Source: Neelides folsomi
Lineage: Eukaryota; Arthropoda; Collembola; Neelipleona; Neelidae
Direction of reading: 5' to 3'
Assembly: GCA_034687125.1 (NCBI GenBank)
Contig: JAQGBZ010000052.1
Span: 124,001-188,000 of the forward strand
DNA: 64,000 nucleotides
Both the position numbers and the translations under genes were made by a program. Positions 32,714 to 33,945 of the stretch are shown piece after piece. The notes below the pieces were generated by a model, which worked only from the letters and a program-made list of their open reading frames with translations, did not search any database and was not told the origin of the DNA. Within the stretch, counting starts at the first letter, position 1. Every line of letters begins with the position of its first letter.

Positions 32714-33945
32714 TTAGAACTTTTTGAAGCTCTTCTTGGCTCCAGGTCCCTTTGCCACCTTCAGGACGTTGAACCTCACTGTTTTACTCAGCGGTCTGCA
32801 CTCCCCAATAGTCACGATGTCACCCATCTCGACGTCCCTTTAAAATAAAACAATCACCATTATTTTAACACATTCACACACTTGATGATAATTTAATCTT
32901 ATGGTTTAATATCAGAAGAACGAAAGAATTCTCGATCAAATATTTTTCTGAAGACCGTCGTGTTATCATCATTATTAGTTTAAATAGTTATTGAATATAT
33001 TTTATTCAAAAATATTTTTTATTTATGTTTACCTAAAACAAGGGGAAAGGTGGACTGGCATATTTCGATGCCTCTTCTCGAATCTATTGTATTTCTTCAC
33101 ATAGTGGAGATAATCCCTTCTGATGACAATCGTCCTCTGCATCTTCATCTTTGTTACAACACCATTGAGGATTCGTCCACGGATCGAGACATTACCCGTA
33201 AATGGACACTTCTTATCAATATAGGTTCCTTCGGTGGCCTAAAATGAATAAATTCCAATTAGTTAAATGCTCTTAAATAATTATTAAAAAGTGGTTATTT
33301 AGAGTTATTGTGTGGCTCAGAAACACGGAAAAAATAATCAGTTGACATCATTGGTCTTAAATTATCGTCATTGCTCACACTTTAAAATTAATCAGAAAAA
33401 GCCAAAAAATAAAAACTCACAAAATCTCAATTTTAAAAATGGTTAATTTAAAAATAATATTAAAGCGAGGGTCGAAATTATAATTAAATAATAATAATGA
33501 AATGATAAGTGAAGCGTAGTGACCTCCCGAGGAGTTTTGAACCCTAGTCCAACGGTCTTGACATGTCTGAGGGACTTTTCTTTCTTCGCCGTCACATTCT
33601 TCCTATTCAAATTGACAATCTTTTGCTTCTGGAAGGCTTTCTCAGTCTGGGCCTTTTAATGTCCACACAGCAAACACACAGCAAAACGCAAACAAAAAAG
33701 AAAAAAAACGAAAACGGATTAAAATGTGAAAATGATTTGCCTCTCTTGAGGGCGGTTTGAATCCGAGTCCGACATTTCGGGTGTATCGGGCAGTTTTGGC
33801 CTTTGGGCCGCCCTTCTTTCGCTGTGGCCCGAGTCCCTTCTTCCGATTGAGGAAGATGGTCGGTTGTTTCTGGAACGATCTCTCCGCCTGCACCTCATTA
33901 GCTAATTGTTCTTTAATATTTAATTGACCTCACCTGATCCGCCAT
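32714..33945 (-). CDS. RpS11: 40S ribosomal protein S11 (uS17), with two alternative second exons
   Basis: Exon 1 is 33945-33934 (ATG GCG GAT CAG). Exon 2A is 33887-33741, exon 2B 33652-33524, exon 3 33238-33033 and exon 4 32837-32714. Exon 3 starts [19 protein letters not shown] after two codons and includes [16 protein letters not shown]. Exon 4 ends [17 protein letters not shown] and KKSFKKF; both match RpS11 closely. Using 2A gives 162 residues and 2B gives 156; human RpS11 has 158. Exon 2A starts [12 protein letters not shown] and ends [10 protein letters not shown]; exon 2B starts [10 protein letters not shown] and ends GLGFKTPRE. Each exon is 0/0 phase with an AG acceptor. The 2B donor is GT; the 2A donor is GC (GAG-gcaaat). 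RpS11 binds 18S rRNA in the 40S body; the bacterial relative is S17. Confidence 0.95.
33524..33652 (-). other. RpS11: RpS11 exon 2B, tandem duplicate of exon 2A (33741-33887)
   Basis: Forty-three codons, open, with an AAAAG acceptor after a long T-rich tract and a GT donor (GAG-gtcact). It replaces exon 2A residue for residue at its ends (FQKQ near the start, VGLGFK and an RE end), but the middle differs: [11 protein letters not shown] against [12 protein letters not shown]. Exon 2B keeps KTPRE, like other animal RpS11, whereas 2A has PPSRE. Both remain open with a protein-like pattern of differences, so neither looks like a dead copy. Including both exons would also keep frame but would duplicate the segment. 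Confidence 0.85.

Follow-up and report, generated by a model that had tools for sequence, protein, structure and literature searches.

The RpS11 (uS17) locus of the collembolan Neelides folsomi raises the question of whether a single ribosomal protein gene can supply two forms of its product through a choice between alternative exons. Encoded on the - strand of the window (the 64,000-nucleotide stretch of contig JAQGBZ010000052.1 analysed here), the gene consists of four coding exons plus a second version of exon 2. A preliminary description of this DNA presented the two versions, exons 2A and 2B, as having the layout of mutually exclusive exons, an assignment that homology and intron phase support. 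As judged from the sequence, the locus holds a genuine, old and constrained exon-2 pair in a single-copy gene, most likely used as mutually exclusive exons.

All features of the gene are given in window positions and are read on the - strand. The coding part of exon 1 (33934–33945; ATG GCG GAT CAG) encodes MADQ, and intron 1, which leads up to exon 2A (33888–33933), is 46 nt long and pyrimidine-poor before its acceptor. Exon 2A (33741–33887) comprises 147 nt encoding 49 residues and exon 2B (33524–33652) comprises 129 nt encoding 43 residues; a variant of exon 2B with a CAG acceptor (33524–33646) encodes 41 residues. The intron between exons 2B and 3 (33239–33523) ends in the acceptor TTTTAG, which scores 7.4. 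Exon 3 (33033–33238), placed by genome search and joined translation, is common to both isoforms, and exon 4 (32714–32837) runs through the stop codon, which ends at 32714.

Joined translations are in frame, in agreement with the phase 0/0 originally assigned to both copies. The predicted product containing exon 2A has 162 residues, as previously stated, and the product containing exon 2B has the previously stated 156 residues with the acceptor at 33652; the acceptor at 33646 gives 154 residues instead. Joint inclusion of exons 2A and 2B also preserves the frame (205 or 203 residues), as does the skipping of both (113 residues). Since both-in and both-out products remain in frame, the reading frame does not enforce exclusion.

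Both copies belong to the same protein family. The Pfam domain Ribosomal_S17_N (PF16205; cut-off 27 bits) is matched by exon 2A at 38.0 bits and by exon 2B at 46.2 bits. At full length, the 2A isoform scores 95.6 bits for Ribosomal_S17_N and 99.5 bits for Ribosomal_S17, and the 2B isoform scores 107.7 and 99.1 bits, respectively; each isoform thus carries both domains of the uS17/RpS11 family. In a self-BLAST of the 1041 window ORFs of at least 30 residues (threshold E 1e-3), exons 2A and 2B form the sole same-strand homologous pair within 6 kb (BLASTP E 1.2e-8). Translation, Pfam and BLASTP therefore agree with the initial report of two open, homologous segments at these positions on the - strand. 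Two features expected of a mutually exclusive pair are present: the copies are neighbouring, homologous internal exons of comparable length (147 and 129 nt) with 21 of 41 aligned residues identical, and they share the same frame and intron phase (0/0).

Searching the 75.1-Mb, 840-contig genome with the S17 family returned three exon matches, all in this gene, and queries with exon 2A and with exon 3 hit a single place apiece. No second RpS11 gene or retrocopy was found in the whole genome with the family, exon 2A and exon 3 queries.

The two copies resemble different solved S11 chains to different degrees. Exon 2A reads KPPSRE at a position where the nine S11 chains shown have an unbroken TPK, TPR or APR; it carries an extra residue and a proline inside the conserved KTPRE stretch, giving a longer loop. 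Exon 2A also keeps QPTIFLNRK, close to the QPTVFLNRK of chain 9eho_MM, the closest solved chain, which scores the copies alike (43.3 bits for exon 2B and 44.0 bits for exon 2A). Chain 4v6w_AL, identical in sequence to 6xu6-8, scores 35.7 bits against exon 2B vs 21.4 bits against exon 2A; by these scores, the S11 form in 4v6w_AL is B-like. Both 4v6w_AL and 6xu6-8 are taken here to be S11 of the Drosophila ribosome. In a manual count over nine aligned S11 chains, PT (7/9 chains) and RY (8/9) are kept by exon 2A and lost by exon 2B, and TP (8/9) and the T of QTE (7/9) are kept by exon 2B and lost by exon 2A.

Divergence between the copies points to an old duplication under constraint. Only ten of their 21 identical residues share a codon. 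Silent sites are saturated, with a pS of 0.90, and pN is 0.30. The observed third-position divergence is 0.59. Simulations paired one neutral with one fully constrained copy, with equal base changes and either copy as the ancestor. At path lengths of 1.4, 1.8 and 2.4, none of 4000 runs per ancestor yielded at least 21 identities together with an open frame; at 1.4, the simulated third-position divergence was 0.57 and 0.59, matching the observed value. At a path length of 1.0, the neutral copy combined at least 21 identities with an open frame at frequencies of 0.00175 and 0.0045. At path lengths of 0.3 (third-position divergence 0.20) and 0.6 (0.35), the neutral copy often keeps 21 identities, and the argument for constraint thus depends on the high silent divergence.

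These comparisons indicate that selection has acted on both copies over most of the period since duplication, and they uphold the earlier argument that neither is long dead. Exon 2A may have been lost recently; because pN is far below pS and the open frame is not reproduced by neutral simulation, any such loss would be recent. The preliminary description also called both copies fully open, which is correct but for exon 2A is weak evidence by itself, as 19% of 20,000 mononucleotide shuffles of exon 2A are also open.

Splice sites at the locus were scored against 19 reference introns assembled by hand from two window genes for myosins, both named from their ORFs. One is a muscle myosin heavy chain gene (approximately 49498–57948, + strand) and the other a class V-like myosin gene interrupted by several short introns (7453–14000, - strand). 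From 27 ORF pairs, 18 introns were kept, nine were dropped (one without a candidate and eight uncertain) and one was added. Known myosin sequence guided the choice of boundaries, which were fixed by scoring GT-AG sites with textbook weights; those of 53891–53974 and 54102–54208 came from a separate intron prediction, and 55395–55573 was the second-ranked candidate. The reference introns are few and were picked as GT sites by consensus score, and are thus biased towards strong consensus sites. Insect muscle myosin is a gene known for mutually exclusive exons (PMC2257972). Among ORFs of at least 30 residues, no duplicated exons were detected in the muscle myosin gene at E 1e-3, a search that short or diverged copies may escape.

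The donor of exon 1 is strong (CAG/GTGAGG; score 9.9). The donors of exon 2A (4.5) and exon 2B (1.7) fall below 19/19 reference donors, which span 5.1–11.8 in leave-one-out scoring. The exon 2A donor (GAG/GCAAAT; 33735–33743) is a non-canonical GC donor, read directly from the sequence, whose C at +2 is penalised through the pseudocount alone. It has two further mismatches, at -3 and +5, to the donor consensus. GC donors usually match the rest of the consensus more closely; they make up <1% of donors, are functional, and are enriched in alternatively spliced genes in human, nematode and Arabidopsis (passages of PMC2490688). The off-consensus exon 2B donor (GAG/GTCACT; 33518–33526) has the lowest score of those compared. 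As the donor of the common exon 3 is also weak (2.4), a weak donor is no mark of an alternative exon in this gene.

Acceptors are similarly unusual. The exon 2A acceptor scores -2.7, below 19/19 reference acceptors (-1.0 to 13.9). Exon 2B has two candidate acceptors, AAAAG/GCC at 33652, which scores 1.0, and CCCAG/ACT at 33646, which scores -6.3. Composition favours 33652 and homology favours 33646, a start that gives an N-terminus resembling MADQTERSFQKQ of 9eho_MM. The original statement that both exons splice cleanly is thus not sustained: the exon 2A donor is GC, the exon 2B donor is GTCACT, the exon 2A acceptor lies below the references and the start of exon 2B is ambiguous. The GC donor and the ambiguous acceptor had escaped that first description, as had a 56-nt tract in the intron between the two copies.

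This intron is 88 nt long, or 94 nt with the 33646 acceptor. Two reference introns are of comparable length (84 and 89 nt), and size alone is therefore no bar to splicing exon 2A to exon 2B. Adenosines occur in the 88-nt intron at nt 3–22 and nt 79–87 alone, and the 56 nt between them (33663–33718) consist of C, G and T. This U-/UG-rich tract upstream of exon 2B, a candidate polypyrimidine tract and regulator site, is the longest A-free run in the window on both strands. The next A-free runs, of 50 and 48 nt, are on the + strand at 17.6–17.9 kb. They lie opposite a very K/E/A-rich open frame of 738 codons (15946–18162, - strand) that resembles a long charged helix. The longest A-free runs of the 19 reference introns measure 6–14 nt.

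The distribution of adenosines limits where a branch point could lie. Between 10 and 50 nt upstream of the acceptor, there are no A residues for 33652 and 10–22 in 19/19 references, and a possible branch A for 33652 would be ≤22 nt from the exon 2A donor or ≤9 nt from the AG. The sole YNYURAY motif in the intron, TTTTAAT (33718–33724), directly precedes the A-free tract and places its putative branch A at intron nt 22 (33719), 22 nt from the donor. By comparison, intron 1 has a single motif, CTAAT, whose A lies 10 nt before the intron end, and 11/19 reference introns have no branch-point motif 10–50 nt from the AG. In 4/19 references (51373, 53399, 54419 and 56651), the sole motif is 23–39 nt from the donor; a lone donor-near motif is hence not rare, and the lack of A is the stronger argument. 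In a human survey, a donor-to-branch distance of <50 nt served as the criterion of potential steric interference, and 57 clusters (9%) satisfied it (passages of PMC5740500). For the 33652 acceptor, the adenosine distribution suggests that the two exons exclude each other sterically, a case that the alternative acceptor weakens. The 33646 acceptor has A residues at 10, 13 and 15 nt that are possible branch points, and if it were used with a close branch A, the steric lock would be gone. A reasonable case can be made from these positions that exclusion may be sterically enforced.

RNA structure would offer a different route to exclusion. Six inverted pairs of 10–15 nt occur among the introns, and Dscam-type selector–docker pairing beyond chance is not supported: the 718-nt fold has a z of 1.07, and 18/20 shuffles are at least as stable. 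No known structured RNA reached the gathering score within 32000–35000. Within the A-free tract itself, eight U occur in a row and UUUGCUGUGUG is present as two perfect tandem copies. Sxl, ELAV, U2AF and PTB-type proteins are candidate binders of U runs, CELF/Bruno of UGUGU, and Muscleblind of UGCU. The perfect tandem pair of the 11-mer TTTGCTGTGTG inside the tract (33664–33685; repeat family D4) is possibly a recent duplication or a putative protein-binding pair.

The copies need not be strictly exclusive. It is unlikely, but would suit several observations, that a mixture is made in which both exons are included (203 or 205 residues) or both skipped (113 residues). Every combination is in frame, the 88/94-nt intron exceeds the 46-nt intron 1 and has reference counterparts of 84 and 89 nt, and the 33646 acceptor allows a close branch point; furthermore, a longer annotated fly S11 isoform may hold both exons. 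This reading sits poorly with the lack of A in the usual branch zone of 33652 and with the weak GC donor of exon 2A, and a second Ribosomal_S17_N segment would presumably be hard to fit in the 40S subunit.

Alternatively, the locus may have a single functional exon 2. The GC donor of exon 2A, its acceptor below 19/19 references, the extra residue and proline that lengthen the loop in the KTPRE stretch, and the higher Pfam score of exon 2B would all suit a gene in which exon 2A is recently disabled or little used and exon 2B provides a single S11. This is doubtful, however, given that pN is far below pS and that a neutral copy does not reproduce the open frame at matching divergence, and given that GC donors are functional and enriched in alternatively spliced genes (passages of PMC2490688). 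The converse, that exon 2A is the working exon and exon 2B a vestige or rarely used copy, is very improbable: exon 2B scores above exon 2A against both the family and 4v6w_AL (35.7 vs 21.4 bits), and the neutral simulation indicates constraint on both copies, although exon 2B has the lowest donor score (1.7) and an ambiguous acceptor, and it is exon 2A that keeps QPTIFLNRK, near the QPTVFLNRK of 9eho_MM.

On balance, the explanation modestly favoured by these data is an old tandem duplication of exon 2 in RpS11 in which both copies have been kept by selection and would be used as alternatives. Under this explanation, TTTTAAT at intron nt 22 would provide the branch point for exon 2B and be followed by the 56-nt U/UG tract. 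The branch point would then lie too near the exon 2A donor for the spliceosome to join exon 2A to exon 2B. Transcripts would be either 1-2A-3, made by removing the short intron first and then using the GC donor to reach exon 3, or 1-2B-3. The choice could be set by competition of the GC donor and weak acceptor of exon 2A with the branch point and tract of exon 2B, as well as by putative proteins bound to the U/UG tract. The resulting products of 162 and 156 (or 154) residues would place different S11 N-terminal segments in the 40S subunit, and the two classes of 40S envisaged in the preliminary description could arise from these predicted isoforms.

Mutually exclusive exons in this gene would not be the first of their kind, as the fly orthologue is already listed with them. 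Drosophila melanogaster RpS11 (CG8857) appears in Table 2 of Buendia et al. (2012; passages of PMC3303723) among genes with mutually exclusive cassette exons derived from EST splicing graphs. The table entry gives an exon start of 278 and a length of 183 nt, and the hexamer AAGAAG in one CG8857 exon has a conservation of 1 in the cluster dro_anoGam (passages of PMC3303723). The gene is the same as that described here; the listed length of 183 nt differs from 129 and 147 nt, so that the listing implies neither an identical exon nor common descent of the duplication. A literature search of titles and abstract openings found no paper devoted to alternative exons of S11. For the fly, FlyBase has more than one S11 protein on record.

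Steric-interference exons, of which alpha-tropomyosin is an example, likewise have a branch point by a long pyrimidine tract, far from their own exon and near the upstream donor, as predicted here. The springtail branch point differs in being a motif prediction, with a CAG-acceptor reading and a close branch point also possible. The let-2 gene of Caenorhabditis elegans shares a GC donor in the intron beside a regulated alternative exon; this donor is essential for regulated exon choice, and changing GC to GT abolishes regulation (passages of PMC2490688). Unlike RpS11, let-2 is a collagen gene, and its developmental regulation has been shown by experiment (passages of PMC2490688). By analogy, a GC donor at exon 2A would be in keeping with regulated use of that exon.

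In fly gonads, ribosome heterogeneity arises by paralogue switching, and RpS11 is enriched in 80S ribosomes of the fly head (passages of PMC8887423). Paralogue switching likewise entails differing versions of ribosomal proteins between tissues, but it draws on separate genes, and the term 'alternative splicing' is absent from the main text of that study (PMC8887423). Fly RpS11 mRNA is also found in Sm-protein pull-downs of mature mRNAs (passages of PMC4053861). Exon choice of RpS11 is unmentioned in the passages of PMC8887423 and PMC4053861 consulted.

Scanning genome contigs with exon 3 gave 57 pattern matches and one confirmed locus, an S11 gene of eukaryotic appearance with introns at 3400–5900 of JAIYDP010000213.1. 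This contig is filed as a pond Verrucomicrobiaceae MAG and is likely to be eukaryotic contamination. Within its 10,239 bases, exons 2A and 2B match one exon-2 region with no second good match, and the sequence is too distant to inform on the pair. The viral contigs scanned contained no match.

The mitochondrial contig (15,157 bases) carries a cox1 gene with 11 in-frame TGA codons. Its gene order is I, Q, M, nad2, W, C, Y, cox1, L(UAA), cox2, K, D, atp6, cox3, G, nad3, A, R, S, E, F, nad5, H, nad4, nad4L, T, P, nad6, cob, S, nad1, L(UAG), V, which is the unrearranged pancrustacean order and speaks against a strepsipteran origin. Names of the protein genes follow from their translations; the calls include neither trnN nor atp8, and one tRNA with an unclear anticodon was set aside. 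The leucine tRNA that separates cox1 from cox2 is the mark of Pancrustacea, the insects and crustaceans.

More tentatively, the exon-2 pair may be an ancient pancrustacean switch that predates the split from Drosophila. The A and B (VNLNRKNVT...) types would then have persisted for hundreds of millions of years, building two functionally different 40S subunits, with the choice hard-wired by a branch point ≤22 nt from a GC donor and tuned by putative proteins on the 56-nt U/UG tract. The finding is of moderate interest, which would be higher if the pair proved ancient across Pancrustacea. Exon-specific peptides and junctions are unambiguous, and the GC donor and A-free intron render the splicing just as open to testing. 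Discussions of ribosome heterogeneity usually centre on separate paralogous genes; if the proposed exon choice is true, a core 40S protein encoded by a single-copy gene would carry one of two old, conserved segments, a clean and testable case of ribosomes that differ by splicing.
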